Positions 7,111 to 56,272 of a DNA stretch of 64,000 nucleotides are shown here, one piece after another (position 1 is the first letter of the stretch; the number at the start of each line of letters is the position of its first letter). The notes under the pieces are model-generated. The model saw only the letters and a list, made by a program, of their open reading frames with translations, made no database searches and was not told the origin of the DNA. Where the stretch lies: contig OY757011.1 in the NCBI GenBank assembly GCA_963580285.1, positions 98,642,678 through 98,706,677 on the forward strand, in the 5' to 3' direction. A program made the translations under genes and the position numbers. The stretch comes from Lucinisca nassula (lineage: Eukaryota; Mollusca; Bivalvia; Lucinida; Lucinidae).

Positions 7111-8400
7111 CAAATTACCAAAATGACAAAGGGCCATAACTCACAAAGTATTTTTCCGAATTTTGTCATAAGTTAATCAGTTCATCTACTCATCACCACC
7201 AATCTATTCACCAACTTTCAAGGCTCTAGCTCCAATAGTTTTTGAGATATCTTGCTGACAAGATTTTATTAAAACAATTTCAAAGGGCAATAACTCTTGA
7301 AGGGGGCATAATCCGGACAAGAAAAAAAATATGCGTCAGCTAATTTTCCATAGGAATCCATATATGAAATTTCAACACCCTACCATACACGGTTCTAAAG
7401 ATATGCTATGCATCACTTTTAGCATACATTACAATGGGCACAAATTACCAAAATGACAAAGGGCCATAACTCACAAAGCATTTTTCAGAATTTTGTCAAA
7501 AGTTAATCAGTTCATCTACTCATCACCACCAATCTATTCACCAACTTTTAAGGCTCTAGCTCCAATAGTTTTTGAGATATCTTGCTGACAAAATTTTATT
7601 AAAAAAATTTCAAAGGGCAATAACTCTTAAAAGGGGCATAATCCGGACAAGAAAAAAAATACGCGTCAGCTTATTTTCCGTGAGGAATCCATATATGAAA
7701 TTTCAAAACCCTAGAATACACGGTTCTAAAGTTATGCTACGCATCACTTTTAGCATACATTACAATGGGCACAAATTACCAAAATGACAAAGGGCCATAA
7801 CTCACAAAGTATTTTTCGGAATTTTGTCAAAAGTTAATCAGTTCATCTACTCATCACCACCAATCTATTCACCAACTTTCAAGGCTCTAGCTCCAATAGT
7901 TTTTGAGATATCTTGCTGACAAGATTTTAATTAAAAAAAATTCAAAGGGCAATAACTCTTAAAAGGGGCATAATCCGGACGAGAAAAAAAATACGCGTCA
8001 GCTAATTTTCCATGAGGAATCCATATATGAAATTTCAAAACCCCAGCATACATGGTTCTAAAGATATGCTATGCATCACTTTTAGCATACATTACAATGG
8101 GCACAATATACCAAAATGACAAAGGGCCATAACTCACAAAGTATTTTTCGGAATTTTGTCAAAAGTTAATCAGTTCATCTACTCATCACCACCAATATAA
8201 TCACCAACTTTCAAGGCTCTAGCTCCAATAGTTTTTGAGAAATCTTGCTGACAAGATTTTATTTAAAAAATTTCAAAGGGCAATAACTCTTGAAGGGGGC
8301 ATAATCCGGACGAGAAAAAAAATACGCGTCAGCTAATTTTCCATATATGAAATTTCAAAACCCTAGCATACACGGTTCTTTAGTATTGCTATGCATCAAA
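7111..8400. repeat. ~331-bp tandem repeat, 4 units
   Basis: Units begin CAAATTACCAAAATGACAAA at 7111, 7441, 7772 and, slightly altered, 8103, giving a period of 330-331 bp. The last unit is truncated at its 3' end. Units are very similar, so the amplification is recent. Confidence 0.9.
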
Positions 8401-17531: not shown

Positions 17532-19702
17532 GGTAACAAGACGTTTCGCCCCCAAGACGATTCCCCCCTGGTCGTTTCCCCCCTGGTCGTTTCCCCCAGG
17601 TCGTTTCGCCTCCTTTTTTGGACCCTAGTCGTTTCGCCCCCAAAACCCTAGTCGTTTCGCCCCCAAAACCCTAGTCGTTTCGCCTCCAATTTGTTTTCCT
17701 AATTTTTATATATAAAATATTGATATATGACACCGAGAGAAAGAAAGAGAGAGAGATAGAAGAACATGTTCTTTAAATGGGAATGATAATCAGCTGGGTG
17801 CCCAGAAGGCTGCCTCGTTGAGGCCCCCTTGGGGACACCCTCCTGATGGAACCCGGAAATATGCAAAGCGAAGACAGCATGGCTGTCAGAACGGAGCATA
17901 CATTCCTGGAATAGGTCAAGTACAGAACAATTTAACAGGCGGGGCAACGGTAAAGACCAAATTTGTTAGGGTTACACTAAAATTTTGAAGCAACAGGAAC
18001 AGGCCTCAATAATTTTAGTATAACAAGTCCTAGTCACACCTCCCCGAGTGGCCACTTTTAAGGCCCGGTGCCGGCCGGTAACTAAGGATAAGTTGATGCT
18101 ACTTAAATATTTGCCTCTTAACAATGTTAATAAAAGTGAAAATTAGTCTAGACATTGATAAGTGGGCGAAACGACTAGGGGGCGAAACGACTAGGGGGAC
18201 GAAACGACTAGGTGTTGCTGCATCCAACCTTACTAAGCATCTCGACAAACATAACATCTTGTATGATCTTCAACATGGATTTAGGGAAAGGAGGTCCTGC
18301 GAAACACAGCTCATCCAACTTGTTGATGAGCTTGCACGAAATCTATCAGCAGGTCACCAGACTGACCTGATACTCCTGGATTTTAGTAAAGCATTCGATA
18401 AGGTTAGCCATATTAAATTACTCCACAAACTGCACCAACATGGCATAACCTCAAACACCCTAAACTGGATCAAAGCTTTCCTTTTTGGCCGTACTCAACG
18501 TGTAGCCCTAGAGGGGGAAACCTCATCCCAAATTCCGGTCACATCTGGGGTTCCCCAAGGATCAGTACTGGGACCGATCCTGTTTCTTTTATACATCAAT
18601 GACCTACCAGAGCAGATCCACTCACAGGTCAGACTTTTTGCAGATGACACGGCAATATATTTGGCTGTCCGCAGTGATGCTGACTGTACCTTATTGCAAA
18701 GGGACCTCCAAAAGCTTGAAACTTGGGAAAAGAACTGGGAAATGGAATTTAACCCGGGTAAATGCCAGGTCCTACACATTTCCCGTTCTAAAGAACCCAT
18801 TAGACACAATTACATTCTCCACGGTGAAGTCCTCCAGGAGGCTGATCATGCCAAGTACCTGGGCCTTGAGTTTAGCCGTGATTTAACTTGGAACACCCAC
18901 ATTCAAAACGTGACCACCAAAGCAAATCGGACCCTGGGCTTCATACGTAGGAATATACGCACCAAACATCAAGGCATACGTGAAACAGCTTATAATACCC
19001 TTGTTAGGCCCCAGCTTGAGTATGCCTCCCCTGTGTGGAGCCCATATACCCAGTCAAATATAAACAAGGTTGAGCAAGTCCAAAGAAGAGCAGCTAGGTG
19101 GGTCAAACATGACTACTCTTCATATAGTAGTGTGACCCAGATGCTTAATACCCTGGAATGGAGATCATTGGAACAGAGGCGGGCAGATGCTCGCCTCCTA
19201 TTGTTCTACAAGATAGTATATAGTCTTGTCGAGATTCCGCTCCCTACATACATCCGACATCCAATCAGAACTACTAAAAACATGCATACTATGCACTATA
19301 TTCAAATCCCTACTACTGCCAGTTACTATAAATACAGTTTCTTCCCCTTGGCTGTGGTACAATGGAATCACCTTCCTCCTCATGCTGTTGTGTGCTTCGA
19401 TCTGGATTCTTTCAGATCGACCATATGCACCCTCCATCACCCAATGCCATGAACTGTGAATTATTGTTTTTATCTGCTTTTAATCTCTACTTTACTAACA
19501 CTGTTTTTACTTTCAATTCTCCTAAAATCTAATACTTTTTCTTCTATCACACTTTTCTTTTTCTGACGCGCGCAGCTGCACATAATCCTCGCGAGAGGGT
19601 GCTGCAGGATATATAGATAGATAGATATGACTCGGGGGGAAACGTCTTGGGGACGAAACGACTAGGGGAGGAAATGGTTTGGGGGCGAAACGTCCCGGAT
19701 TC
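17532..19702. mobile_element. Element B: DNA transposon with iterated CGTTTCGCCCCC ends, 8-bp target duplication
   Basis: The left end has about six repeats of TAGTCGTTTCGCCCCCAAAA or shortened forms (17541-17695); the right end has inverted copies (19630-19695), and further copies lie at 18163-18212. The flanks ATAATGAG at 17524-17531 and 19703-19710 are a target duplication. The interior contains a 5'-truncated LINE. The right duplication begins only 3 bp into the RNF2 intron, measured from the exon 1 donor at 19713. Confidence 0.8.
18124..19452 (+). CDS. Non-LTR retrotransposon reverse transcriptase, 5'-truncated
   Basis: Open frame of 442 codons. The first ~37 residues (to about 18220) are translated from element B's own repeat, so the start is probably not biological. 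From LTKHLDKHNIL on it is a Jockey/CR1-type reverse transcriptase: HGFRERRSCETQL, LLDFSKAFDKVSH, SGVPQGSVLGPILFLLYINDLP, the catalytic LFADDTAIY, NPGKCQVLHISR, KYLGLEF, and the C-terminal NTLVRPQLEYASPVW and YKYSFFPLAVVQWNHLPP blocks. The endonuclease and first RT motifs are missing. A (TAGA)n-like tail (19612-19627) marks its 3' end. It lies inside element B, antisense to RNF2. Intact as far as it goes but unable to transpose alone. Confidence 0.9.
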   Translation: MLIKVKISLDIDKWAKRLGGETTRGTKRLGVAASNLTKHLDKHNILYDLQHGFRERRSCETQLIQLVDELARNLSAGHQTDLILLDFSKAFDKVSHIKLLHKLHQHGITSNTLNWIKAFLFGRTQRVALEGETSSQIPVTSGVPQGSVLGPILFLLYINDLPEQIHSQVRLFADDTAIYLAVRSDADCTLLQRDLQKLETWEKNWEMEFNPGKCQVLHISRSKEPIRHNYILHGEVLQEADHAKYLGLEFSRDLTWNTHIQNVTTKANRTLGFIRRNIRTKHQGIRETAYNTLVRPQLEYASPVWSPYTQSNINKVEQVQRRAARWVKHDYSSYSSVTQMLNTLEWRSLEQRRADARLLLFYKIVYSLVEIPLPTYIRHPIRTTKNMHTMHYIQIPTTASYYKYSFFPLAVVQWNHLPPHAVVCFDLDSFRSTICTLHHPMP

Positions 19703-19713
19703 ATAATGAGCAC

Positions 19714-20129
19714 CTGTGTGTTAATGCAGCCGTGCTATGGTGTTTATTCAATTTTGCCAGAACCCTTTCTTGGTGAGCCTCGTATTCATCTCTGCTTGGA
19801 TAAATTTTCGAAATCAATGCATCAAAATTAGGGTCGGGTCTTAGTGACCTTTTCGACACCAGTTTCTTTCTACATGTAGGGCATTCTTTGTTTCCACTTC
19901 GCAAGGCGGTAATGATGCATTCATGACAAAATCTGTGCAAACATTCTTTAGTTGTCATCGTATTTTTCAGCATGTCAAGGCATATTGGACACATCAGTTC
20001 ACTATGTAAGCTTCTTGGAGAGACTGCTATTTCAGTGTTGTCTGTTATTGCTTCTTGTGGTGTCCTGTGTAGCTCATATAAACTCAATTCCCATGTTTGG
20101 GTTGGAGCATTTGCGACTCCGTTCGCCAT
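19714..20129 (-). CDS. RNF2: RING1/RNF2, exon 1 (RING domain)
   Basis: Encodes the E3 ligase subunit of Polycomb repressive complex 1, which monoubiquitinates histone H2A in the nucleus. I chose the ATG at 20129-20127 ([20 protein letters not shown]), which fits the family's N-terminus; an upstream in-frame ATG at 20210 would add 27 unrelated residues. [19 protein letters not shown] and [20 protein letters not shown] are almost identical to vertebrate RNF2. The C3HC4 RING spans about residues 47-88 (CPIC…CLHRFCHEC…CPTC), followed by [18 protein letters not shown]. The exon ends AALTH-AG|GTGCTC (donor at 19713), and the next exon supplies T-ATTGAAGAA. An element B copy begins 11 bp downstream of the donor and element D lies 141 bp upstream of the start. 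Confidence 0.95.
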
Positions 20130-20135
20130 TTTGAA
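20119..20135 (-). promoter_or_regulatory. YY1/PHO-like motif over the RNF2 start codon
   Basis: On the minus strand the start context is TTCAAAATGGCGAACGG. AAAATGGCG matches the YY1/Pleiohomeotic core, which often overlaps start codons. This is motif-level evidence only. Host 5' flank is limited to 20130-20261, because a (TTA)n run (20231-20260) and then element D follow. Confidence 0.35.
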
Positions 20136-20228
20136 AATAATTGCTTTAACGCATGCGTTACCGGACCACAATTTGTTAGCCCACGAATTGGGTTTTGGTA
20201 CATGCAACAAAAAAATACACGTCTGTTA

Positions 20229-24430: not shown

Positions 24431-26754
24431 CTTATACTGAGTCGGTCATATCTGGCCATTACCTCAGTTGATTGGGTGGCTAAATTTAGAATTTAGCTGG
24501 AAAAAAAAAAGAAAAAAAAAAAAAAAGAGAGGCACTGGATGCGTCCTTAAAACTATTTACAATCTGCATAACAGAGGTATCCTAAAACGCATACCTCTGA
24601 GACCCAATCTTACACTGTGCGGGCTTTGAACCCTTCTGCGGACTTGGCATTCACCGCAGAGGAGGGAAGACTATTCCATTGGGGAATAGTTCTAGGAAAA
24701 AACGAGTTCTTCAGGGCATCACTATAGGACTGGTATCTACGATATTGTGAGTCGTTTAATTTTGATGCCCTTGTTTGGGTCGACAGTGTTACAGGGGTCA
24801 AGTACCTATCTTTATCAATAGACACTGAATCAGAGTGTATCTTGTAGAAGAAGGTTAAAGACGACTGCTCACGACGGGCCTCCAGGGACGGCCACTCTAG
24901 CTCATTAAGCATGTCACCGACGCTACTTCTATTTCGCCATCGCCTACAGGTCCATCGAGCAGCTGTCCTCTGCACCTTCTCCACCTGCTGAGTCTGAGTT
25001 TTAACATAGGGGTGCCAAATGGGTGATGCATATTCGAGTTGAGGGCGAACCAATGTTTTATATGCAACATCCTTTGTCTGCCTAGGTGCAAAAGCCAAGT
25101 TCCGTCTAAGGAATCCCAAAGTCCTAGTTGCTTTAGATGTAATCTCTGAGATATGTTGACCCCAATCAAGATCGTCAGTGATGGTGATACCAAGATATTT
25201 GGCGGATTGAACATGCTCCAAAACTTGTTGGTGAAGAGTATAGTCAAACTTAATTTGCTTGTCCGGAGGGTGTCGTGACACTCTCATTGAGTGACATTTG
25301 GCCACATTGAACTTCATTTGCCAATCGGCCTCCCACTGTGCAAGTTGATCCAGGTCATCTTGTAAAATAAGACAGTCAGAAGGAGAATATATGTTCCTAT
25401 ACAGGACACAATCATCAGCAAACAAACGGACCGATGACCTGATATTATCGGGGAGATCATTAATGAAAACCAAGAAAAGGACCGGTCCAAGGACCGAACC
25501 TTGGGGGACTCCAGATAAAACAGGGACTGGATCAGACGCTTGGCCATCAAGTACAACTTGTTGTGAGCGCCCAGAGAGCCATGAGCTAATCCACCTATGC
25601 GTGGATCCTCTTATCCCATAGTACTCCAGTTTATGTAATAGCCTTCTGTGAGGTACCTTGTCAAAGGCCTTAGCAAAGTCCATGATAATCAAGTCAGTCT
25701 GTTTGTGGCCACGATTTATGGCCCCATCCAGATTGCTCACAATGTCATGGTAAAATTGAACAAGCTGCGTTTCGCAAGACCTTTGACTCCGGAAACCATG
25801 TTGACAGTCAGCAAGAATGCTCTCAAAGGCTAAGTGCTTGTTGATGTTGCTTACTAATATATGCTCCAAGGTTTTGCAACAGATGCATGTTAGCGACACT
25901 GGTCTATAATTTGCTGCATCATATTTTTCCCCTTTTTTATAGACCGGGGTTACATTTGCTTGTCGCCAGTCATCTGGTACAGTGCCCTGGGCAAGTGATT
26001 GATTGAAGATAAAGGCCAACACAGGAGATATTTCAGCACTACATTCCTTAAGTACCCTGGCATTCAGGTCATCGGGCCCAGATGCCTTATGTATCTTGAG
26101 CTTACCTAACAGTTTAGCGACCCCATTGGGGTCAACTGTTATGTCCCCCATAGAGGGGAACGGACTTGCACCTTTAGATGGTAGCTCACCATCAGTTTCA
26201 CGCGTAAATGCTGATTGAAACTGTTTATTGCAAATATTAGCCTTATCGCGCGCATCTGTTTTTAGAATTCCATTTTCCCTTAGCGAAGTGATCCCAATCG
26301 CATCCTTTTTCAGGGACTTTACGAATGACCAAAACTTTTTAACTTTACCATTCTTTTGGGGACTATCGGGATCTATATTGTCATCTTCAAAGGTAAAGAT
26401 GCTGGAAACATGCTTCCAATATGCATCTCTTATAACCTTTTGCACATGTGCTCTGAACCGTTTGTAATGGTTCTTAACGTCAGGGCTGCTAGACTTGCGA
26501 GCACGAAAATACATTCTATTCCGTCTTCTGATGAGATGCTTGATCGTGTTATCGATCCATGGTGCCCTATATTTTGTTTTGGTCATTTTAGTTGGTATAA
26601 ACCTTTCCATTGCCGTGGTTAATTCGGACTTAAAACTGACCCACAGGTCATTAACTGACATGTGTGAGAGGTCAGAGGAAAGGAACGAATCCTTAAATCG
26701 CGCCATATGGTCTCGCAGACCATCCATATCCGCACGTTTGTAGAGAAAAACTTT
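24387..26754 (-). mobile_element. 5'-truncated Jockey/CR1-type LINE with GATA tail
   Basis: Minus-strand element: ORF, ~180-bp 3'UTR, A/T-rich stretch, the 3' terminus CCGACTCAGTATAAGAAGAT and a (GATA)n tail, seen on the plus strand as (TATC)n at 24387-24428. An independent 87-bp copy of the same 3' end at 37435 confirms where the element stops. It was inserted into the hairpin repeat; the short shared TTCT at both junctions may be the target duplication. Confidence 0.85.
24610..26727 (-). CDS. LINE reverse transcriptase, 705 aa, uninterrupted
   Basis: The N-terminal ~200 residues are the linker after a lost endonuclease (AMERFIPTKMTKTKYRAPWID, basic RRRNRMYFRARK). The RT domain has GPDDLNARVLKE, WRQANVTPVYKKG, NYRPVSLTCICCKTLEHIL, HGFRSQRSCETQLVQF, IMDFAKAFDKVPH, SGVPQGSVLGPVLFLVFINDLP, the catalytic LFADDCVLY, KCHSMRVSR and KYLGITIT. 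The C-terminus has KTLVRPQLEYASPIWHPY and SFFPRTIPQWNSLPSSAV. The absence of frameshifts over 2.1 kb indicates a recent copy. The endonuclease domain is missing because of 5' truncation. Confidence 0.93.
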   Translation of the reverse strand: MDGLRDHMARFKDSFLSSDLSHMSVNDLWVSFKSELTTAMERFIPTKMTKTKYRAPWIDNTIKHLIRRRNRMYFRARKSSSPDVKNHYKRFRAHVQKVIRDAYWKHVSSIFTFEDDNIDPDSPQKNGKVKKFWSFVKSLKKDAIGITSLRENGILKTDARDKANICNKQFQSAFTRETDGELPSKGASPFPSMGDITVDPNGVAKLLGKLKIHKASGPDDLNARVLKECSAEISPVLAFIFNQSLAQGTVPDDWRQANVTPVYKKGEKYDAANYRPVSLTCICCKTLEHILVSNINKHLAFESILADCQHGFRSQRSCETQLVQFYHDIVSNLDGAINRGHKQTDLIIMDFAKAFDKVPHRRLLHKLEYYGIRGSTHRWISSWLSGRSQQVVLDGQASDPVPVLSGVPQGSVLGPVLFLVFINDLPDNIRSSVRLFADDCVLYRNIYSPSDCLILQDDLDQLAQWEADWQMKFNVAKCHSMRVSRHPPDKQIKFDYTLHQQVLEHVQSAKYLGITITDDLDWGQHISEITSKATRTLGFLRRNLAFAPRQTKDVAYKTLVRPQLEYASPIWHPYVKTQTQQVEKVQRTAARWTCRRWRNRSSVGDMLNELEWPSLEARREQSSLTFFYKIHSDSVSIDKDRYLTPVTLSTQTRASKLNDSQYRRYQSYSDALKNSFFPRTIPQWNSLPSSAVNAKSAEGFKARTV

Positions 26755-29740: not shown

Positions 29741-29745
29741 ATCGA

Positions 29746-29791
29746 GGGTCACTGATGAGGCCTCATTAGCCGAAACTGGCTAATCTGGCCC
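29746..29791 (+). ncRNA. Hammerhead ribozyme motif, type I, partly degenerate
   Basis: Stem I GGGTCA/TGGCCC, core CTGATGA (29752-29758), stem II GGC…GCC, GAAA (29772-29775), cleavage triplet ATC. C after GAAA cannot pair with the A before TC, so stem III is weak. Probably poorly active. Confidence 0.7.
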
Positions 29792-30004
29792 AGAAAATAT
29801 GCACACTTCATATATTCCACTTCTGTGGTGTATTCATTGCTTCCAAAGGATAACCATTTTATAGAACACATTTTACGTCACTGCAGCTGGTGTCTGGGAA
29901 TGTGTGGCGGCCGTAAAAAGTCTCCCTGCCTACATCATAGTGTAGTTTGTATTTTTGGTCCTTTGGGATCATTGATTCCATTGTGAAATTTTGAAAACAA
30001 TTGA

Positions 30005-30050
30005 GGGTCGCTGATGAGGCCTAATTGACCGAAACAAGCTAGTCTGGCCC
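30005..30050 (+). ncRNA. Hammerhead ribozyme motif, type I
   Basis: Core CTGATGA (30011-30017), stem II GGCC/GACC with loop TAATT (one mismatched position), GAAA (30031-30034), cleavage triplet GTC (30042-30044), stem I GGGTCG/TGGCCC. The A-to-G change beside the core converts an A-U pair into G·U. Confidence 0.75.
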
Positions 30051-30130
30051 AGAAAACATGCACACTTCATATTATCCAGTTCTGTGGTGTATTCCTTTCT
30101 TTCAAAGCATAACCCTTTTATAGAACATAT

Positions 30131-30680
30131 TTACTGAGAATTAAAGAGAATTTAATTTTATGTTATGTTGGATGGTGCCTGATGCTCCCCATTGGAATCT
30201 AACTGTTGGTTTCCTTTTGCTCCAGCTTTTCAGTGGTTTCTTGCTGTTGAGTTCTCACAATTGTTTCATCTGTTTGGTTGTTTGATTTCTGTGTTCTCAG
30301 AGATGTTGCATTGATGAGTTTGGAGGCTTTCATTTGGACTGAATCAGTTATTTGTCTACGAGTAAGGGCGAGGAGTGCAGCCACATAAAATCGATTTAAG
30401 TCCCAAGTGGGGGTTCTTCTATCGCGGTTTATTTTTGTAACGGTTTGTCGTTTGAGTGTGTACATCGCTTATACTATTTTGTTTTGGATAGCAAATTAGC
30501 CATTTGGAGGGAAGTAACTGTCCTTTTAGCTTTCCGCTATTGATGTTTCCGTTGGAGTCTAGTTATTTCATTTTTTTTCTGTGTCTTTCTCTTTTGTGTC
30601 ACTGATGGGAGCTGTGAGTTAATTGTATCGTTTCCTGATCATTGCATTCACTTCTATTTGTTACTTTGAACACTTTGTAA
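30131..30680 (+). repeat. Dispersed repeat, right of the retrozyme
   Basis: Continues the segment matched at 32870-33440: CTAACTGTTGGTTTC, CAGTGGTTTCTTGCTGT, ATCGCGGTTTATTTTTGT, TAACTGTCCTTTTAGCTTTC. Together with 29400-29740 it forms one repeat split by the retrozyme. Confidence 0.75.
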
Positions 30681-32130: not shown

Positions 32131-35100
32131 TTATATGGTAGAGTGGCTGGTTGAGTAGTTACTTACCTTACTTATGTTACTTAGAATTCTACTTAGGTTA
32201 CTTATCCTACTTATCCTACTCATCTTCGTTGGGACAGATTTCGCCGCTTACTTAGTTTACTTAGCTTACTTAACTAACCTGGTATGGGTAGCGTAGCTGG
32301 TGGAGTGGTTACTTACCTTACTTATGTTACTTAGAATTCTACCTAGGTTACTTAATTTGCTTATCTTACTTACCCTACTCATCATTGTTCCGAGGGACAA
32401 GGCCGCTAATTTAGTTTACTTAGCTTACTGGACTTACTTTGGTATTTGTAGCGTTGCTGGTGGAGCAGTAACTTACCTTACTTAAGATACTTAGAATTCT
32501 ACTCAGGCTTATCCTACTTCCCCTACTCATCTTCTTCGGTACAGGCTTCGCCACTTACTTAGTTTACTTAGCTTACTTAACTTACTCTGGTATGGGTAGA
32601 GTGGCTAGTGAAGAGTTACTTACCTTACTTATGTTGCTTAGAATTCTACTTAGGTTATATACTCAGAAAAATATATAACCGCAATGACTTCAGCACCCAA
32701 TTTCGTAAAATCATACTTCGATGTAAAAAGATGGGGTGCAGCATGGGTGTTGTGCGACGGGCTGCGTGCGTGGTGGTTGGCCCGGTCGCGGTTGGCGGCA
32801 TTGCTTCCCTCTTTGGGTGCACGCCGGTGGGTCGGGCCTCGGATTCTGTGGCGGTTCCAACGTAAAAGCTTATTGAGAATTAGAGAGATCTTATTCAAGG
32901 TAATGTTGGTTGGTGCCTGATGCTCTGTCTCTGGTCGGGCCCATCGGAGTCTAACTGTTGGTTTCTTTTGCTCCAGCATTTCAGTGGTCTCTTGCTGTCG
33001 AGTCCTCACCGTTGTTTCATCTCTGTGGTTGTTGTATTATTTGTGTTCACAGAGATGTTGCACTGATGAGTTAGGAGGCCTTCATGCGGACTGAACAAAT
33101 TATTTGTCTAAATCGCGACGGAAGTAAGGGCGAGGATTGTGGCCATGTAAAATCGATTCAAGCCCCCCCCCCCCCCCCCCCCCAGTGGAATTCGTTTCCG
33201 CTGACCGTTCCAAGGCGGTTCTTCTGTCGCGGTTTATTTTTGTTATGGTTTGTCTTTGGGTGTTTGTGTCGCTTATGTTATTTTATTTTGGATAGCCTAT
33301 TGGTCATTTTGTGGGAAAGTAACTGTCCTTTTGGCTTTCCGCTGTTGATGTTTCCGTTGGAATCTAGTTATTTCATAACTGTGTTTCTTTCCCTTTGGTG
33401 TCACTGATGGGGTTATGGGTTAATTGTATCGATTCCTAGCCATTGCCTCAATTCACTTCTATTCTACTAAAATGGTTTTGCTACAATAGAGTAAATGGCT
33501 GACAAAATTAAAAAGAGTAGAAACCTCAAGGTGACCTTCTACCGATCGAAGTGCAACAGATATGCATCAATGAATAAGATGGCTGTCAGGTATCCATATG
33601 ACTTTCAGAACTTATTTCTGTTGGTGTTTCCATTAGGGTTTGTTGTTTCATGTTTGTGTGTCTTTCCCTTTAGTGTCTCTGATGGGAGCTTTGGGTTGTT
33701 TGTATCGATTCCTGATCATTGCCTCCACTTCTATTTCTTAGTTTACTTATCCTACTTACCCTAGTCATCCTCGTTGCGACAGACTTCACCGCTTACTTAG
33801 TTTACTTAGCTTACTTAACTTACAGTGGTAAGGGTGGTATAGGACAGTTACTTACCCTACTTACGTTACTTAGAATTCTACTTAGATTACTTAGTTTACT
33901 TATCCTACTCATCATTTTTCGGAGTGACAAGGTCGCCAACTTAGTTTACTTAGCTTACTCAACTTACTTTGGTATTGGTAGCGTTGCTGGTAGAGCAGTA
34001 ACTTACCTTACTAATGTAACTTATAATTCTAATCAGGTCCTTAGCTTACTTATCCTACTTACCTACTTATCCTCGTTGGGACAGACTTCGCCGCTTACTT
34101 GGTGAACTTAGCTTACTCAACTTACTTTGGTATTGGTAGCGTTGCTGGTTGAGCAGTAACTTACCTTACTTATGTTAGAATTCTACTCAGGTTAATTAGT
34201 TTACTTATCCTGCTTACCTTACGAATCTTCTTTGGTACAGACCTCGCCACTTACTTAGTTTATTTAGCTTACTTAACTTACTCTGGTATGGGTAGAGTGG
34301 CTAGTGGAGCAATTATTTACCTTACTTATGTTACTTAGAATTCTACTTAGGTTACTTTAATTACTTATCCTACTTACCCTACACATCCTCTTCGGTACAG
34401 ACTTCGCCGCTTACTTAGTTTGCTTAGCTTACTTTACTTACTCTGGTATGGGTAGAGTGGCTAGTGGAGTAATTATTTACCTTACTTATGTTACTTAGAA
34501 TTCTACTTAGGTTACTTAGTTTACTTATCCTACTTACCCTACTCATCCTCGTTGGCACAAACTTTGTCGCTTATTTAGTTTACTTAGCTTACTTAACTTA
34601 CTATGGTAAGGGAGGTATAGCTAGTAGGACAGTTACTTACCTTACTTACGTTACTTAGAATTCTACTTAGGTTACGCAGTTTACATATCCTACTTACCCT
34701 GCTCATCATTGTTCGGAGTGACAAGGTCGCCAACTTTGTTTACTTAGCTTACTCAACTTACTTTGGTATATTGGTAGCTTTGCTGGCGGAGCAGTAACTT
34801 ACCTTACTTATGTTACTTAGAGTTCTACTTAGATTACGTAGTTTACATGTCCTACTTACCCTACTCATCCTCTTCGGTACAGACTATGCCGCTTTCTTAG
34901 TTTACTTAGCTTACCTGACTTACTCTGGTATGGGTAGAGTGGCTAGTGGAGTAATTCCTTACCTTACTTATGTTACTTAGAATTCTACTTAGGTTACTTA
35001 GTTTACTTATCCTACATACCCTACTCATCCTCGTTGGTACAGACTTTGTCGCTTATTTAGTTTACTTAGCTTACTTAACTTACTATGGTAAGGGAGGTAT

Positions 35101-35915
35101 AGCTAGTAGAACAGTTACTTACCTTACTTACGTTACTTAGAATTCTACTTAGCTATAGGTTACGTAGTTTACTTATCCTACTTTCCCTACTCATCATTGT
35201 TCGGAGTGACAAGGTCGCCAACTTTGTTTACTTAGCTTACTCAACTTACTTTGGTATATTAGTAGCTTTGCTGGCGGAGCAGTAACTTACCTTACTTATA
35301 TTACTTAGAGTTCTACTCACATTACGTAGTTTACATATCCTACTTACCCTATTCATCCTTTTCGGTACAGACTATGCCGCTTACTTAGTTTACTTAGCTT
35401 ACCAGCTGACTTACTCTTGTATGGGTAGAGTGGGTAGTGGAGTAATTCCTTACCTTACTTTTGTTACTTAGAATTCTATTTTGGTTACTTAGTTTACTTA
35501 TCCTATTTACCCTAGTCATCCTCGTTGGGACAGACTTCGCCGCTTACTTAGTTTACTTAGCTTACTTAACTTACTGTGGTAAGGGTGGTATAGCTAGTAG
35601 GACAGTTACTTGCCTTACTTACGTTACTTAGAATTCTACTTAGGTTACTTAGTTTACTTATCCTACTTACCCTAATCATCATTGTTCGGAGTGACAAGGT
35701 CGCCAACTTAGTTTACTTGGCTTACTCAACTTACTTTGGTATTGGTAGCGCTGCTGGTAGAGCAGCAACTTACTTTGCTTATGTTACTTAGAATTTAACT
35801 CAGGTTACTTATCCTACTTACCCTACACATCCTCTTCGGTACAGACTTCGCCGCTTACTTAGTTTACTTAGCTTACTTAACTTACTCTGGTATGGGTAGA
35901 GTGGCTAGCGGAGTC
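32131..35915. repeat. ~160-bp TTACTTA satellite, about 17 units, higher-order trimers
   Basis: Units contain TTACTTAGAATTCTACTTAG near 32184, 32334, 32494, 32641, then 33873 and about every 160 bp to 35791. Three sub-types differ in the segment after the CATC: a (CGTTGGGACAGACTTCGCC), b (TTCGGAGTGACAAGGTCGCC), c (CTTCGGTACAGACTTCGCC). From 34545 the order is a-b-c repeated four times. A 1.1-kb repeat copy interrupts the array at 32660-33735. Confidence 0.9.
32660..33735 (+). mobile_element. Dispersed repeat inserted into the satellite
   Basis: The longest copy of the CACCCAATTTCG / CGATACAATTAACCC family in the window, in plus orientation from GCACCCAATTTCGTAAAATC to GTATCGATTCCTGATCATTG. 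It includes the empty retrozyme site (32867-32886) and a poly-C run (33165-33183). No coding capacity seen. Confidence 0.7.
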
Positions 35916-37521: not shown

Positions 37522-37999
37522 CATTGGCTTATCGTACGGCCCCATACGATTAGCCTGTATTGGCTAATCGTACGGCCCTGTACTTTTAGCCAATATAGGC
37601 TATACTGGCTAATCGTACGGCCATTCTAGTTCGGTACCAAGAAAGTGATACTGCTGGTGGTAAGACAAAACAGCTTATCGTACGGCCTCAAAAGACTAGC
37701 CATTCCTAGCCCCTATGTGAAACGTGCTGAAACCCAAAACATAAAGGATATTAATGCACGGGCTGTGAAGTTTGTATCAAATTGACCCAATTGTTTAGGA
37801 GGAGTTCGCATTTAAAGAAACTTTTGACGGCGCACGACGGACGACCCACGGCACAAGCCAGACAATTTTAAGCAATGGAACCGCACTTCTTCTAGAAGGC
37901 GTATTCATCAGATAACAAGTCCATGTAATGAACACCCCTCTAAACCTCCCATTATACACAGAAAAAGTAAGATTTACAGGGGAAGTCATTATTTGCCTT

Positions 38000-40905: not shown

Positions 40906-42346
40906 TTATAACTTTTCTTCTTTTTTTCAGCGATAAAGGTTACATTGTATTTGTATAGGCGCGTAGCCATTTCGGAGATGTGAAAAAATGCACTATGTCG
41001 CACGGGTGTGTTATCGTAATGCTGCAGACTAAATTGATCATACGATGTGGAAATATTGATGACACAATAATCAGTCTGTGCATCTTAGATTCTACCCAAT
41101 CTTATCAATATATTTGTTGTTCACAATGAGCATGGCAGTTTTGTATTGATACAGGCTAAATGCAAAGTTTTAATAATGATATTATTTGCGCCGCTCCATC
41201 CCTCAGGGAGATCAGCCTGTGCATCCGCACAACATCACGGTACAGGCCTTTATAATTTTGATCCACTTAAACCCCACCTTTTATTGTAAAGCTTTACAGG
41301 GGTGCACATTATTTTTCTTATTTCTGTTGATAATTAAAATCATAGATACTTGTTAGAACTGCCTCGCCGATGGCGGTACCCAAATCTATGTTCTGGGCAG
41401 AAATATGATCCTTCAGCGGTCGCATATATGATGAGTTCTATAACCTCATCTGCTTTGCATACTGTCAACGCTTAAATAGGGTGAAAATGTTGAGAGAAAT
41501 TCAAGTAGCTTAACATTTAAGTAAGTAAAGGAAACTGAAGAATTAAAATATGTTAAAAACCATCTTAACAATAACCTTGGATTACGTTTCCCTGTGCATT
41601 CAGCTTTGAAGGTCTTCCCGCCATGGATACAGCTAAACATTATTTCCGACACTTTAAGAGCCTCATTGATAGTGTTTTTAGGACATCTGCTTTTAGCAGC
41701 CGAATTGTGCGTGATCTGCGCTTATAAAATTGAACGCAGTTAGAAAGCTGATAATGTTCAATGTTGCTTTCCAAAGCACTATAACTTGTAAATTTTTCAT
41801 CAACACTAAATGATATTTCCATTCTGAAAAACGATATTTGAAGCAATTAATTTCATTAACTTACCATCCTAAACAAACTGATAATCGATAGTACTATTAA
41901 ACAATTAAATTATTTTCTGTTGACATGTATATACCATCGATATTAATATTTAACAATACTTATAAGTATATATACATAAATAATATAAATCTGATTCGCA
42001 AAATATATTTTAACCTATTCCTTGGTACCGAATTATAGCCGTACGATTAGCCAATATAGCATATATTGGCTAAACGTACGCGGCCGTACGATTAGCCAAT
42101 ACAGGCTAATCGTACGGGACCGTACGATTAGCCAATGCAGGCTATTCGTACGGGGCCGTACGAATAGCCACTTCCAAAAACCAACAGTCAAACAGACTAC
42201 CTGTATGTGAAGCTATCAGTTTGAGCCTGCAAAAATATCTAATCTAACAAATGAAAGCACTGTTTCATTACATGATCTGCAATATACTGATAAATGGGCT
42301 GATTAAAAAATTTGAACAACCTGGTACTCGAAAAGATAAATTCACT

Positions 42347-42880: not shown

Positions 42881-43379
42881 TGACATTTATAGGTTAATAT
42901 TTAGCTTCAATACCGTACAGGTTGGAATAAACATATTTTTATTTGACTTTGGTAAGATATATCAGTCAGTTCCAAGTTCCCTAAACGCAGCGTGTGACCA
43001 GGGTTATAATGTCTAAATCAAATGGTTAAAAATGACCCTTTTTCGCCAAGTTATTCTCCTATTTATGTCACCACGCCCGAAGGAACATAGCTCCCAGCGG
43101 CCTCACAATGTATGTGCATCGTTGTATCAACGCGACGTTGCTGAGGCATCATGTGCCCACGAGGAGAACTTCTCAGTAAGATTTTTAGCAGCTGGGAAAT
43201 CACCGAATGTCCTGAGCTTATTTAGAAATATATGGTTTACCATGAAAAAAAATAACAGGCATGTTTACGAATCTTTCTTTCTTCCTTTTTCTCTTTGTTT
43301 GGGTGGTTTGGTGAGGCAAAGGTGATGTGTATCTTGTATCACTAGGGCGTCCAGCTGTATTGGCTTAAAGTTGGGCAAA

Positions 43380-43556
43380 TATGTTCTTTAAAAGGGTTAT
43401 CCCTTGGAAGCAAGGAATACACCTCAGAACTAGAAAATATGAAGTGTACATTTTTTTCTGGGCCAGACTAGCTAGTTTCAGCCAATTGGGCCTCATCAGT
43501 GACCCTAAAATATTTTCAAAATTCCAGAAAGTGTCCTTGCAGCTGGTGACAGTAGA
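43380..43556 (-). mobile_element. Retrozyme-like element, partial, minus strand
   Basis: The 3' end on the minus strand is …CCTTTTAAAGAACATA, matching the terminus of the other two copies. It carries one complete hammerhead motif. The other boundary is not sharp and no target duplication was found. Confidence 0.65.
43460..43505 (-). ncRNA. Hammerhead ribozyme motif, type I, fully paired
   Basis: On the minus strand: stem I GGGTCA/TGGCCC, CTGATGA, stem II GGCC/GGCT (loop CAATT), GAAA, then ACTAGCTAGT, which forms a 3-bp stem III with an AGCT loop, and the cleavage triplet GTC. The best stem III of the eight canonical-core copies. Confidence 0.82.
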
Positions 43557-46184: not shown

Positions 46185-46708
46185 TTAACCCTTATCTTGC
46201 TGTTATCGACAACCCCTATCTTTGCAAACAGTATAGATCCAGATCAGATGGCTTCTGAAGAAGCCATCTGATCAGGATCTACACTGTTTGGTATTCCGTT
46301 TATGAATTTGTAGCAATAAATTACATCAAGTAATTTGATTGGTTGATAGTTTGTTTGATTTGAGGTTTAACGTCCCAGTCAACATTGTAAAGGTCATTTT
46401 GGAGACGTTGCTTCCAATTTTGTGGGACTTTTACCCGACATTGAGATGAAATGACATCCGAAGCCCTGTCGCCCAATGAAACCAATAGGGTTTATAAGCA
46501 TGGATGGTCCAACTCCCACTGCTTTGCCTGGGCAGGTTTAGATCCTGTAAGCGGTTTACCAGTACTCGTGTGCCGGTTGGATTTAGCTCTGTGTGGAAGC
46601 ATCTTGCAGCCCATATATTTCTTCAAGCCCCGATGGGCGGTGGCTATGATTGGTTGATAGACAGAAATGGGTTTGGCTTAAATGAATATTCAGCAAGATA
46701 AGGGTTAA
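46185..46708. mobile_element. piggyBac-like MITE, CCCTTATC family, with nested SINE
   Basis: Ends TTAACCCTTATCTTGCTG and CAGCAAGATAAGGGTTAA. Removing it joins the LINE frame as …FQL-F-K-DQLDS across a single TTAA, which proves TTAA target duplication. The core has AACAGTATAGATCCAGATCA…TGATCAGGATCTACACTGTT. A SINE interrupts it at 46350. Confidence 0.9.
46350..46642 (-). mobile_element. Family-2 SINE nested in the MITE
   Basis: TGATTGGTTGATAG stands on both sides (ending at 46349 and again at about 46648-46661), a 14-bp target duplication of MITE sequence. Full-length copy. Confidence 0.85.
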
Positions 46709-47325
46709 GGATCAGCTTGATAGCATGAAGTCTCAGAATAAGGGTAAAAACTTCCTGCAGCTCGTGTTCCAGGTGACTTCAACTTCAGAGACATCGTCGA
46801 CCCAATAGACTCAGCAAAAAAGGCACAATGCTAAATCCCTCTGAAGGACAAACATTGGTTGACATTATGAATGATCATGGCTCGGAACAAATTGTTTACT
46901 TCCAATTAGGCCTCATCAGTGACCCTCAGATATTTTCAAAATTCCACATTGGAATCAATGATCCCAAAGGACAAGAAAATATAATCTACACTATGATGTA
47001 GGGCAGGGAGACGTTTTACCGCCACCACACATTCCCAACACTATGATGTAGGGCAGGGAGACGTTTTACCGCCGCCACACATTCCCAACCGAAACAAGCT
47101 AGTCTGGCCCAGAAAACATGTACACTCCATATTTTTCACTTCTGTGGTGTATTCCTTGCTTCCAAAGGATAACCCTTTTATAGAACATATTTAACTTCAC
47201 TACAGCTGGTGTTTCGGAATGTGTGGCGGCGGTAAAACGTCTCCCTGCCCTACATCATAGTGTAGATTATATTTTCTTGTCCTTTGGGATCATTGATTCC
47301 ATTGTGGAATTTTGAAAATATCTGA

Positions 47326-47371
47326 GGATCACTGATGAGGCTTAATTGGCCGAAACAAGCTAGTCTGGCCC
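47326..47371 (+). ncRNA. Hammerhead ribozyme motif 1 of array
   Basis: CTGATGA 47332-47338, stem II GGCT/GGCC, GAAA 47352-47355, GTC 47363-47365, stem I GGATCA/TGGCCC with one A-C mismatch. Confidence 0.78.
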
Positions 47372-47586
47372 AGAAAACATGTACACTCCATATTTTTCTC
47401 TTCTGTGGTGTATTCCTTGCTTCCAAAGGATAACCCTTTTATAGAACATATTTAACTTCACTACAGCTGGTGTTTCGGAATGTGTGGCGGCGGTAAAACG
47501 TCTCCCTGCCCTACATCATAGTGTAGATTATATTTTCTTGTCCTTTGGGATCATTGATTCCATTGTGGAATTTTGAAAATATCTGA

Positions 47587-47632
47587 GGATCACTGATGAG
47601 GCTTAATTGGCCGAAACAAGCTAGTCTGGCCC
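47587..47632 (+). ncRNA. Hammerhead ribozyme motif 2 of array
   Basis: Identical in layout to motif 1, with the same GGATCA variant in stem I. Confidence 0.78.
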
Positions 47633-47847
47633 AGAAAACATGTACACTCCATATTTTTCACTTCTGTGGTGTATTTCTTGCTTCCAAAGGATAACCCTTT
47701 TATAGAACATATTTAACTTCACTACAGCTGGTGTGTGGGAATGTGTGGCGGCGGTAAAAAGTCTCCCTGCCCTACATCATAGTGTAGATTATATTTTCGT
47801 GTCCTTTGGGATCATTGATTCTATTGTGGAATTTTGAAAATATCTGA

Positions 47848-47893
47848 GGGTCACTGATGCGGCCTAATTGGCCGAAACTATCTAGTCTGGCCC
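47848..47893 (+). ncRNA. Hammerhead motif 3 of array, core mutated
   Basis: The core reads CTGATGC (47854-47860) instead of CTGATGA, so cleavage is unlikely. Stem I is GGGTCA/TGGCCC, and stem III is ACT-ATCT-AGT (3 bp). Confidence 0.75.
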
Positions 47894-48108
47894 AGGAAAC
47901 ATGTACACTCCATATTTTTCTCTTCTGTGGTGTATTCCTTGCTTCCAAAGGATAACCCTTTTATAGAACATATTTAACTTCACTACAGCTGGTGTTTGGG
48001 AATGTATGGCGGCGGTAAAACGTTTCCCTGCCCTACATCATAATGTAGATTATATTTTCTTGTCCTTTGGGATCATTGATTTCATTGTGGAATTTTGAAA
48101 ATATCTGA

Positions 48109-48154
48109 GGGTCACTGATGAGGCCTAATTGGCCGAAACAAGCTAGTCTGGCCC
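48109..48154 (+). ncRNA. Hammerhead ribozyme motif 4 of array
   Basis: CTGATGA 48115-48121, perfect stem II GGCC-TAATT-GGCC, GAAA 48134-48137, GTC 48146-48148, 6-bp stem I GGGTCA/TGGCCC including one G·U. Confidence 0.85.
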
Positions 48155-48369
48155 AGAAAACATGTACACTCCATATTTTTCACTTCTTAGGTGTATTCCT
48201 TGCTTCCAAAGGATAACCTTTTTATAGTACATATTTAACTTCACTACAGCTGTTGTGTGGGAATGTGTGGCAGCGGTAAAACGTCTCCCTGCCCTACATC
48301 ATAGTGTAGATTATATTTTCTTGTCCTTTGCGATCATTGATTCTATTGTGGAATTTTGAAAATATCTGA

Positions 48370-48415
48370 GGGTCACTGATGAGGCCTAATTGGCCGAAAC
48401 AAGCTAGTCTGGCCC
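48370..48415 (+). ncRNA. Hammerhead ribozyme motif 5 of array
   Basis: Same sequence as motif 4: CTGATGA 48376-48382, GAAA 48396-48399, GTC 48407-48409. Confidence 0.85.
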
Positions 48416-48630
48416 AGAAAACATGTACACTCCATATTTTTCACTTCTTAGGTGTATTCCTTGCTTCCAAAGGATAACCTTTTTATAGTACATATTTAAC
48501 TTCACTACAGCTGTTGTGTGGGAATGTGTGGCAGCGGTAAAACGTCTCCCTGCCCTACATCATAGTGTAGATTATATTTTCTTGTCCTTTGCGATCATTA
48601 ATTCTATTGTTGAATTTTGAAAATATCTGA

Positions 48631-48676
48631 GGGTCACTGATGAGGCCTAATTGGCCGAAACTATCTAGTCTGGCCC
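48631..48676 (+). ncRNA. Hammerhead ribozyme motif 6 of array
   Basis: CTGATGA 48637-48643, perfect stem II, GAAA 48657-48660, stem III ACT/AGT with loop ATCT, GTC 48668-48670, full stem I. The most complete motif in the array. Confidence 0.87.
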
Positions 48677-48813
48677 AGAAAACATGTACACTCCATATTT
48701 TTCTCTTCTGTGGTGTATTCCTTGCTTCCAAAGGATAACCCTTTTATAGAACATATTCCCTACTTGCGATAAGAACACTTTGGATTTGATTCTTACAACT
48801 TTACCAGGACAAT

Positions 48814-49043
48814 TTAACCCTTTTAGTACCAAATGGAATCTTCCTCCTTATATATAGCAAGTGTCCATTTCATAATTTAGGGGCGTCAGGTTGTGTTTTC
48901 TTCAAAATCTATTTGGCAAATGGCTGAACTTTTTGCAAATAGTGTAGGCCTGGATCAGACGCCGCGTTCTGTGGCGTCTGATCTGGGCTTGCACTGTTTG
49001 CTAGGGTACCCGTTTTGGGGGTGTCCGGTACAAAAAGGGTTAA
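48814..49043. mobile_element. piggyBac-like MITE, GGTAC family, in the LINE
   Basis: TTAACCCTTTTAGTACCAAA … GGTACAAAAAGGGTTAA. Removing it gives the LINE frame TLPGQF-K-DIQSRDK across one TTAA. The core palindrome holds GACGCCGC…GCGTCTGATC. Confidence 0.9.
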
Positions 49044-49309
49044 AGATATCCAGTCTCGAGACAAACGTAGTGATCACGAAATTGTTTACAGATTTTTAAA
49101 AATCTTCATACTACCTATAAAGAAACCACATAGAAAGGTTTACTTATATCAAAAAGGTTGCTATGAAACTATGAGGAAGGATGGCTAAAATTTGCAAAGG
49201 AGAATTTAAAAATAATATCCCCGCCAAAACTAGCAGCTCTGCATCTTCGATTCCTTGAATCACACCAAAGATAAGAAGAAAGATGCAGAGAAGAAATAAT
49301 TCAAGCCTG

Positions 49310-50696: not shown

Positions 50697-51865
50697 AGCT
50701 CACCTGAGCACGAAGTGCTCAAGGTGAGCTTTTGGGATCAGTCTTTGTCCGTCGTCCGTGCGTGCGTGCGTCCGTCCGTCGTCAGCTTTTGCTTTAAACA
50801 ACATCTCCTCCAAAACTGCTGGACAGATTTTGATCTAATTTCACAGGAATGCTCCTTGGGTGATCCTCTACCAAAATTGCTCAAACCGTTCCGCTCGGGT
50901 GAACAAGATGGCCGCCAAAGCTAAAAATAGAAAAATTCTTTAAACGACTTCTCATGCTTAACAAGTGGATGGATTTTGAAATTGTTTCACAGGAATGTTC
51001 CTTGGATGACCCTCTACCAAAATTGCTCAAACCGTTCAGCTCTGGTGAACAAAATGGCCGCCAGAGCTAAAAATAGAAAAACCTTTAAACAACTTCTTCT
51101 CCTTAACCAGTTGATGGATTTTGAAACTATTGCACAGGAAGGTTTCTTGGGTGCCCCTCTACTAAAATTGCTCAAACCAATCCGCTCGGCTGAACAAAAT
51201 GGCCACCAGAGCTAAAAATAGAAAAACCTTTAAAGGACTTCTTCTCCTTAACCAGTGGATGGATTTCGAAATTACTTGACAGGAATGTTCCTTGTGTGAC
51301 CCTCTACCAAAATTGCTCAAACAGTTCCGCTCGGGTGAACAAAATGGCCGCCAGAGCTAAAAATAGAAAAAGCTTTAAACGACTTTTTCTCCTTAACTAG
51401 TGGATGGATTTTGAAATTACTTCACAGGAATGTTCCTTCGGTGACCCTCTACCAAAATTGCCCAACCGTTCCGCTCGGGTGAACAAAATGGCCGCCAGAG
51501 GTAAAAATAGAAAAAGCTTTAAACGACTTTTTCTCCTTAACCAGTGGATGGATTTTAAAATTATTTCACTGGAAGGTTACTTGGGGGATCCTCTACCAAA
51601 ATTGCTCAAACTGTTCAGTTTTAAACCCCATTGGTTTCATTGGGTGGCAGGGCTTGAGATGTCATTTCATCAAAAATGACTTTTACTTCTCAAAATGACT
51701 TCTACTCCTAAACAGGCAGACTAATTTTGAATTAATTTCGCAGAAATGGTCTTTGGGTCCAACCAAAATTGCTCAAACCCTCCACTCCACCATATATTGC
51801 CCACAATTCCGTTTGTACAATAGGATCAGGTGAGCGATCCAGGGCCATCATGGCCCTCTTGTTTT
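50697..51865. repeat. Dispersed element with ~145-bp tandem units (CACAGGAATG family)
   Basis: Left end AGCTCACCTGAGCACGAAGT forms a hairpin with GTGCTCAAGGTGAGCT, followed by a CGTCCGTCC run. Five units of GATGGATTTTGAAATTACTT…AACAAAATGGCCGCCAGAGC recur every 142-148 bp. A family-2 SINE scrap is at 51622-51675. Right end GGATCAGGTGAGCGATCCAG…GGCCATCATGGCCCTCTTG. Open frames here are repeat sequence. Confidence 0.8.
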
Positions 51866-54399: not shown

Positions 54400-56272
54400 A
54401 GTTTGTGCGTGTGCGTGCGTCCGTCCGTGCGTGCATCCGTAAACTTTTTCTTCAAACGACATCTCCTAAACCTTTGATCAGATTTTGACCAAACTTCACA
54501 GGAATGATCCTTAGGTGGTCCCCTTTCAAAATTGTTCAAATGGTTCCGGTCCATTGCACATATAGGTCACAGGAGCCAAAAATAGATTTTTTTCATCGAA
54601 AACTTTAAAAATCTTTTGGGATCACTTTTTGTCTGTCGTCCGTCGTGCGTCCGTTTGTGCGCACCAACGAAACAACATTTAGGGGGCAAAAAATTTGGAC
54701 AGTTTGACACTTAAGTATATATTCGTGAGTCCAAATGGGGTTTATTCCGTTATTTGGGTACTTAAGTGGCAAAAATTCGCTCTTAGGTGGCTTGCCGCTT
54801 AAGAGAATTTGCCGCTTAAGTAGTCAATATGCCGACGCCTAGCCACTTAAGTATCCGTTCGTGAGAACATCCGTGCGTGCGTCCGTAAACTTTTTCTTCA
54901 AACGACATCTCCTCCTAAACCCTTGATCAGATTTTGACCAAACTTCACAGGAATGATCCTTAGGTGGTCCCCTTTCAAAGTTGTTCAAATGGTTCCGGTC
55001 CGTTGCACATATAGGTCACAGGAGCCAAAAATAGATTTTTTTCATCAAAAACTTTAAAAATCTTCTTCTCTGAAACCGCAAGGCCCAGGACATTGATATT
55101 TGGTATGAAGCTTCATCTAGTGGACCCCTACCAAGATTGTTCAAATTATTGTGCTGGGGCCAAAAATGCCCCGCACTGGGACCCTTTGGTTTTACATGGG
55201 CTTATATAGGGAAAATCTTTAAAAATCTTCTTCTCTGAAACCACAAGGCCCAGGTCTTTGATATTTGGTATGAAGCTTCATCTAGTGGACCCCTACCAAG
55301 ATTGTTCAAATTATAGTGCTGGGGCCAAAAATGCCCCACCCCCCGGGGGCCCTTTTGTTTTACATGGGCTTATATAGGGAAAATCTTTAAAAATCTTCTT
55401 CTCTGAAACTGCAAGGCCAAGGTCTTTGCTATTTGGTATGAAGCTTCATCTAGTGGACCCCTACCAAGATTGTTCAAATTATAGTGCTGGGGCCAAAAAT
55501 GCCCCCGCCCCAGGGCCCTTTGGTTTTACATAGGCTTATAAAGGGAAAATCTTTAAAAATCTTCTTTTCTGAAACTGCAAGGCCCAGGTCTTTGATATTT
55601 GATATGAAGCTTCATCTTGTGGACCTCTACCAAGATTGTTCAAATTATAGCCCTGGGGCCAAAAATGCCCCGCCCCGGGGGCCTTTGGTTATACATAGAC
55701 TTATATAGGGAAAATCTTGAAAAATCTTCTTCTCTGAAACCACAAGGCTTAGGTTTTTGATATTTGTTATGAAGCTTCAGCTAGTGGACCTCTACCAAGA
55801 TTGTTCAAATTATAGCCCTGAGACCAAAAATGCCCCCGCCATGTGGCCCTTTGGTTTTACATAGACTTATATAGGGAAAATCTTTAAAAATCTTCTTCTC
55901 TGAAACCACAAGGCTTAGGTCTTTGATATTTGTTATGAAGCTTCATCTAGTGGACCTCTACCAAGATTATTCAAATTATAGCCCTGGGGCCAAAAATGCC
56001 CCCGCTCCAGGGCCCTTTGGTTTTACATAGACTTATTTAGGGAAAATCTTTTTTTACATAGACTTTTTTATGCAGGGTAAACCTTTAAAGTCTTCTTCTC
56101 TGAAACCACAAAGCCCAGGTCTTTCATATTCGATATGAAGCTTCATCTTGTGGACCTCTACCAAGATTGTTCAAATTATAGCCCTGGGTCCAAAATTGAC
56201 CCTGCCCTGGCCCCACTTATTATACATTGGATCAGGTGAGCGAACCAGGGCCCTCTGGGCCCTCTTGTTCAT
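54400..56272. repeat. Dispersed element with ~167-bp tandem units
   Basis: Begins in a CGTGCGTCCGTCC run with AAACGACATCTCCT, and contains seven units of CTTCTTCTCTGAAACC.CAAG…GAAGCTTCATCTAGTGGACC near 55110, 55272, 55440, 55605, 55771, 55939 and 56134. Right end GGATCAGGTGAGCGAACCAG…GGGCCCTCTTG. A ~220-bp insert at 54650-54875 repeats ACTTAAG motifs (see 63005). Confidence 0.8.

Follow-up and report, generated by a model that had tools for sequence, protein, structure and literature searches.

A family of 261-bp hammerhead-bearing tandem repeats in Lucinisca nassula, interpreted as animal non-LTR retrozymes

Overview

The stretch of Lucinisca nassula DNA analysed here (the window, 64,000 nt) carries a 261-bp hammerhead unit in three insertions, with varied 5' ends, a 3' end common to at least two of the three, and one 5' inversion. 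Judged by sequence, the array and the other insertions form a new family within the animal non-LTR retrozymes, a known class of small non-coding mobile repeats. Taking the evidence as a whole, we consider it likely that the family spreads through an RNA that self-cuts, is circularised and is copied in trans. A reading of the letters alone (the sequence-only reading) had picked out the tandem array and called it retrozyme-like with type I hammerheads. This assignment is partly supported, in that it fits both the sequence and the published class in size, GC content, tandem arrays, lack of an open reading frame and dispersed insertions. The anatomy of the insertions is the new part of the array analysis.

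The 261-bp array

We number the unit from u1 at position 47089 (CCGAAAC), which places the predicted hammerhead cut after u16 (Table 1). Tandem repeat finder and direct repeats give a period of exactly 261 and 6.4 copies for 47089-48757, in agreement with the exact 261-bp spacing that had been claimed, and the six motif starts read from the sequence (47326, 47587, 47848, 48109, 48370 and 48631) are confirmed as the 5' strands of stem I. The interval originally assigned to the array, 46904..48756, does contain it, but the part at 46902-47088 lies outside and is an inverted partial copy with an internal 50-bp duplication. The GC content of the array is 0.40, and no coding was seen in it, the longest open frame having 62 codons. 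The unit length and GC content fit the short (about 150-450 bp), low-GC tandem repeats by which the retrozyme class is recognised.

Table 1. Features of the 261-bp family in the window (u, position in the unit)
Feature	Position	Strand	Description
Array A	47089..48757	+	six full 261-bp units and 103 nt of a seventh; tandem repeat finder, direct repeats, unit comparison
Inverted 5' segment	46902..47088	-	u261 down to u126, then u175 to u125 again; inverted repeats, BLAST, per-site comparison
Two 50-bp direct copies within the inverted segment	46988..47087	.	repeat search
Hammerhead 1	47326..47371	+	exact core; stem I 5/6 pairs (A.C mismatch); predicted cut after 47365
Hammerhead 2	47587..47632	+	exact core; stem I 5/6 pairs; predicted cut after 47626
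Hammerhead 3	47848..47893	+	core damaged (CTGATGC at 47854); stems intact
Hammerhead 4	48109..48154	+	core and stems I/II intact; stem III 2 bp; predicted cut after 48148
Hammerhead 5	48370..48415	+	core and stems I/II intact; stem III 2 bp; predicted cut after 48409
Hammerhead 6	48631..48676	+	core and stems intact; stem III 3 bp, loop ATCT; predicted cut after 48670
Predicted hairpin	48705..48752	+	u51-u98 of the last unit, just 5' of the 3' end; fold prediction
3' end of array A	48757	+	u103 (..GAACATATT); 87 nt beyond the last predicted cut
Insertion B	29742..30133	+	about 1.5 units; 3' end u103-105; TTACTGA at both edges
Insertion C	43377..43526	-	5'-truncated (about u217), ~0.6 unit; one intact hammerhead, stem III 3 bp

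Units 1 and 2 differ by one base and units 5 and 6 by two, and the remaining pairs by 9-19 (unit comparison). With these two near-identical pairs set aside, two unit types alternate at u50, u125 and u212 along 47089-48757. The pattern suggests that the array probably grew, or was homogenised, by duplication of units after insertion, or else that its template was not one monomeric circle. The alternation argues against the copying of one monomeric circle that was left unchanged later, and might stem from a template that was dimeric or from crossing over by two units.

Unit duplication, to which the near-identical neighbours point, also favours a different explanation, i.e., DNA-level spread (by unequal crossing over, extrachromosomal circles or rearrangement) of an ordinary satellite or short tandem repeat whose hammerheads are idle remnants. 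We regard this as improbable, and return to it with the motifs and the insertions below.

Hammerhead motifs

Each of the six unit junctions reads, in type I order, stem I, CTGATGA, stem II, GAAA, a short stem III, GTC and stem I. The bare CTGATGA..GAAA..GTC pattern has nine matches in the window versus 0.38 expected; seven of these come from the retrozyme-like family, and the two others are at 22938 (+) and 27876 (-). A type I descriptor that takes the stems into account, tolerating at most a single mismatch per stem in stems I and II, gave seven matches with an exact core versus 0.04 per shuffled window (200 shuffles), and eight versus 0.17 with one core mismatch allowed. The descriptor matches have the layout expected of retrozyme hammerheads, with an open stem I and CUGAUGA..GAAA..UH in order. 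We also sought a minimal Penelope-type hammerhead elsewhere in the window; this candidate was rejected, as all matches of the scan (four sites on the + strand and one on the - strand) are members of the retrozyme-like family.

The sequence-only reading had placed every element in each unit. This holds for half of the array motifs, in which an intact core is combined with full stems I and II (cores at 48115, 48376 and 48637). Counted over all six, CTGATGA is present in five, GGCC-TAATT-GGCC in four and GGGTCA in four. The first two motifs have GGCT-TAATT-GGCC, which is still pairable, and GGATCA, which leaves an A.C mismatch against TGGCCC. Stem III is 2-3 bp long in all six. The picture of six equivalent ribozymes that cut a transcript to 261-nt monomers is thus too strong, given three motifs intact by sequence and a very short stem III. 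Many type I hammerheads of animals have been reported to possess a weak helix III and to work better as dimers (PMC7761336). In the copy at 43499 (-), stem III is ACU/AGU with the loop AGCT, and ACTAGCTAGT is a palindrome that could pair between molecules at 10/10 positions; for the other two stem III versions, intermolecular pairing covers 8/10 positions.

The damage to half of the array motifs fits the satellite explanation, whereas the retention of every core base and of stems I and II in three array motifs and in insertion C speaks against it. Differences between loci affect 8 of 116 hammerhead positions and 44 of the 398 remaining ones, the latter including two bases past the end of C (Fisher p = 0.22). 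Visible selection on the hammerhead is therefore not upheld, as its conservation between loci is not significantly better, and this too is in line with a satellite.

Rfam scores and predicted folds

The whole 64-kb window contains no Rfam family at gathering score. A covariance search had been proposed as a check of the hammerheads, with the lack of a hit above threshold to count as refutation, and formally this is the result obtained; it is a further point for the satellite explanation. A relaxed threshold applied to 46500-49200 returned seven hits. The top three by bits are not hammerheads; they belong to two microRNA families and a bacterial sRNA, and map to the flank (48854-49004). The hammerhead hits, three to Hammerhead_3 (20.6, 18.2 and 18.2 bits versus 48.5; E 0.46 to 2.1) and one to RAGATH-1-hammerhead (19.4 of 56.3 bits; E 5.5), fall on hammerheads 4, 5 and 6, and support them weakly. 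Thus, neither Hammerhead_1 nor Hammerhead_3 attains its gathering score, the best hammerhead hit having 20.6 of 48.5 bits. Because stem III is very short, we rank this result below that of the descriptor, and read the shortfall as a probable case of low sensitivity to type I motifs with a short stem III, not as refutation. An Rfam gathering score is not a defining feature of retrozymes, a class originally found with RNAmotif descriptors (PMC7229834).

For isolated motif pieces, the lowest-energy fold differs from the hammerhead fold in all nine rows tested (the row for 29752 is one base off register, and its pair counts are void). In the three intact array motifs, the hammerhead fold lies 2.4-2.5 kcal/mol above the lowest-energy fold, in which stem II persists, stem I is kept wholly or for the most part, and extra pairs span the core. 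When placed in a 76-nt context, the four array motifs with CAAGCTAG favour a fold without stems I and II, and the two with CTATCTAG retain stem II and most of stem I. Folded as 261-nt circles and compared with 60 dinucleotide shuffles each, all five units tested (of six) are more stable than the shuffles in the sense orientation (z -1.6 to -2.6), and none of the five is in the antisense orientation (z -0.4 to 0.1).

Dispersed copies and insertion ends

The earlier description covered the array; insertions B and C are additional. They were found by BLAST with the unit (E up to 0.001) within the 64-kb window, which brings the family to three dispersed loci of 6.4, 1.5 and 0.6 units with different flanks. 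In insertion B, the hammerhead core at 30011 fits the descriptor and that at 29752 appears only in a looser scan. Compared with the array consensus, the one full unit of B has 28 differences in 261, gaps included. No relatives of the family were identified by three pattern scans of viral contigs, two of prokaryotic contigs or a distant BLAST (two units) of plasmids, collections that imply nothing about other animals.

The 5' ends vary, with the direct part of A starting at u1, B near u230 and C near u217. At the 3' end, C stops at u104, or at u121 (to about 43351) if a weak flank match is real. The distance from the predicted cut to the end is 87 nt in A and 87-89 nt in B, depending on how the short repeat is shared; in C it is 88-89 nt (one extra base), or 115 nt if the insertion extends to u121. 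The C flank resembles the unit to u121, with a gap, at P 0.009 versus random window pieces, this being one of three flanks tested. A single 3' end common to all three loci is weakened by this match, and the claim is held for two of the three. The probability that two further loci end within 2 nt of the first 3' end by chance is 0.0004; with C set aside, the chance of a shared end is 5/261, or about 0.02. Since a self-cut linear RNA would end elsewhere, the template was likely circular or uncut, with an internal start of the reverse transcriptase.

The word TTACTGA flanks B; two random 24-nt stretches share a word of 7 or more with P 0.026. At the edges of A and C there is no convincing target-site duplication, only 5-mers that are common by chance (0.31). 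Three separate insertions with different flanks, of which two share a 3' end and differ in their 5' ends, one has a short edge repeat and one a 5' inversion, argue against the satellite explanation and are consistent with the retrozyme reading.

The hairpin predicted just before the 3' end of A was considered as a structure of the family. None of its 18 pairs is changed on both sides, and the 83.3 per cent of cells that are paired equals the shuffle mean (37-61 per cent when the hairpin is slid). As the pair counts give no covariation, the hairpin is not upheld as a proven structure.

The inverted segment upstream of the array has homology that may reach 46892 (u9), with a gap (BLAST). At its outer edge it has u261, which in the unit lies next to u1, the base that opens the direct array; flank and unit share CC at this edge. 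Target-primed reverse transcription of L1 is known to yield 5' inversions, attributed to twin priming, and about 70 per cent of 5'-inverted L1 insertions have 2-5 bp of microhomology at the 5' junction (PMC2912911). The same source gives 5' inversion as rare in Alu and SVA, which are moved in trans (one example and 4 of 477, respectively). In shape, the segment at 46902-47088 is what twin priming would leave as a 5' inversion, although an inversion at the DNA level would look alike. As a 5' inversion, it would be anatomical evidence favouring target-primed copying of retrozyme RNAs.

Other features of the window

Reverse transcriptases were searched for among stop-to-stop frames of at least 130 codons. 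Two LINE-like open reading frames with an RVT_1 match were identified, at 18097-19452 (+) and 24610-26754 (-), with TAGA-type short repeats downstream of both. The product of the latter shares 95 per cent identity, at 87 per cent coverage, with a protein deposited under a Candidatus Thiodiazotropha MAG (the best of 6581 proteins, of which 120 were listed). Bacteria of the Candidatus Thiodiazotropha type live in lucinid clams. The occurrence of an animal-type LINE in such a MAG may most simply be explained as host DNA in the symbiont assembly. Taken alone, this match makes a bivalve, perhaps close to Lucinidae, the probable source of the window. One LINE is surrounded by short arrays, at 17542-17689, 18164-18212 and 19629-19694, whose related units of 14-32 bp are GAAACGACTAGG-like and occur on both strands.

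Also encoded are a Tc1/mariner-type transposase (332-1159, +; 275 codons, with HTH_Tnp_Tc3_2 and DDE_3) and a RING finger protein (19701-20225, -; zf-C3HC4), which by eye we take to resemble RING1/RNF2-type proteins. Short tandem blocks at 37523-37602 and 42068-42170 have a near-palindromic 36-bp unit (GGCTAATCGTACGG-like and its complement). Satellite-like arrays with periods of 131-482 bp occur at 5366-7109, 7109-8398, 33737-35914, 50826-51616 and 55047-56051, none of which reaches an Rfam gathering score. A hairpin in the flank to the right of the 261-bp array, at 48932-49004, has sub-threshold hits to microRNA families (mir-1263, 29.4 of 95 bits), and related hairpin arms are found at 46217-46290.

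Proposed mechanism and candidate helpers

By analogy with the published class, read-through transcripts would self-cut at GTC, and the resulting 261-nt RNAs would be closed into circles by a host ligase. A reverse transcriptase supplied in trans would then copy the circle or an uncut multimer, beginning at a preferred internal site about 87 nt past the cut, and the product would be integrated by target-primed reverse transcription.

Penelope-like elements have been called a strong candidate helper for animal retrozymes (PMC7229834), and biochemical data are available for the Poseidon element of Anolis (Frangieh 2024, PMC11167929). In vitro, its enzyme starts 111-118 nt into the ORF, at an AC-rich stem loop. 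The hammerhead cut is given in that paper as 26 nt into the ORF, which puts the start 85-92 nt beyond; recounted by us on the printed RNA, the cut is at 29 nt and the start 82-89 nt beyond. The internal start needs no homology to the target, and both target strands are cut and extended. AT-rich, ATT-type targets are a further mark of Penelope-like mobilisation. The 87-89 nt measured in the clam family is compatible with either range. Chance alone would place an end in an 11-of-261 window with a probability of about 4 per cent, and the match between 87-89 and 82-92 nt is one coincidence on two or three loci, which we regard as suggestive. Mobilisation by a Penelope-like enzyme that starts 82-92 nt past its own cut in vitro is therefore testable, and unproven. 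The need for circles is argued against by the finding that unprocessed RNA was the main substrate of the Anolis enzyme and that hammerhead mutants left insertion unaffected in vitro (PMC11167929).

We tentatively suggest, while thinking it rather doubtful, that animal retrozymes could act as SINE-like partners of Penelope-like elements, the two sharing a module made up of a type I hammerhead and a start about 87 nt downstream of its cut. The enzyme would load inside circular or multimeric RNA, run through one or more units and be able to prime from both target strands, giving rise to multimers and 5' inversions.

The retrozyme might instead be mobilised by a LINE of the kind found in the window, an alternative that concerns the helper only. 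It is a distinct possibility, though not one we favour. Two LINE-like reverse transcriptase reading frames lie in the same window and 5' inversion is well known for L1, but the TAGA-type repeat downstream of both LINEs is absent from the retrozyme end. A 3' end common to the two LINEs and the retrozyme was rejected on comparison by eye.

The copies could also be fragments or pseudo-LTR repeats of an autonomous, hammerhead-bearing Penelope-like element, rather than a free-standing retrozyme. Such elements do carry type I hammerheads, are arranged in tandem and have pseudo-LTRs (PMC11167929), and the 3' end geometry agrees with that measured for the Anolis element. However, an own reverse transcriptase with a GIY-YIG endonuclease, as expected for a Penelope-like element, was not found for array A, in which the absence of any frame longer than 62 codons likewise counts against this origin. 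The two reverse transcriptase reading frames of the window match RVT_1 only, and the nearest family copy is 3.0 kb from the one at 24610-26754 and 10.3 kb from that at 18097-19452. Furthermore, a minimal form without helix III or loop contacts is given for Penelope-like hammerheads (PMC7761336), whereas insertion C and the motif with its core at 48637 have a helix III of 3 bp. We consider this origin very unlikely, and retain that of a free-standing retrozyme.

Under the retrozyme reading, insertion ends hint at which enzyme copies these RNAs. Mapping the ends relative to the cut would be a simple genome-wide test of the helper, and the copies described here suggest that it could be workable. 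The approach may be useful as a 2020 review finds in animal retrozyme repeats no conserved motif from which to deduce the mobilising autonomous element (PMC7761336, section 9).

Comparison with known systems

Hammerhead-bearing small repeats had been said to occur in several animals, in agreement with the description of non-LTR retrozymes with type I hammerheads, 170-400 nt long, in mussel, coral, axolotl and others (Cervera and de la Pena 2020, PMC7229834). The 261-bp family resembles these in unit length, a GC content below 50 per cent, tandems from dimers to multimers, the type I hammerhead with a short helix III, and the lack of coding sequence. Units are species-specific according to that paper, and the likeness is one of description, not of sequence. 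Northern blots revealed circles of the published retrozymes, and RtcB carried out the ligation in vitro. Loop 1-2 tertiary contacts were also checked, and the mussel motifs lack most of the conserved contact bases (PMC7229834). In the main text of that paper we noted no fixed insertion end and no 5' inversion.

The LTR retrozymes of plants (PMC4918200, as described in PMC7229834) are likewise non-autonomous and self-cutting, with a circular RNA in the published model. They differ in having a type III hammerhead, an LTR and a length of 600-800 nt, versus type I, no LTR seen and 261 bp here. The W-elements of Schistosoma are similar in being tandem and transcribed, and some of them have working hammerheads and further copies at other genomic places (PMC8490949); they belong to another phylum, and are likened to the 261-bp family by description, not by sequence.

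Poseidon of Anolis (PMC11167929) encodes a reverse transcriptase/endonuclease and the 261-bp family does not. The clam family further differs from it in a helix III of 2-3 bp and in an end that follows a predicted hairpin whose loop is not AC-rich, in place of the AC-rich stem loop. Alike in both are the type I hammerhead and the tandem organisation, and the presumed position of the start may be as well, at 82-92 nt past the cut in Poseidon versus 87-89 nt here.
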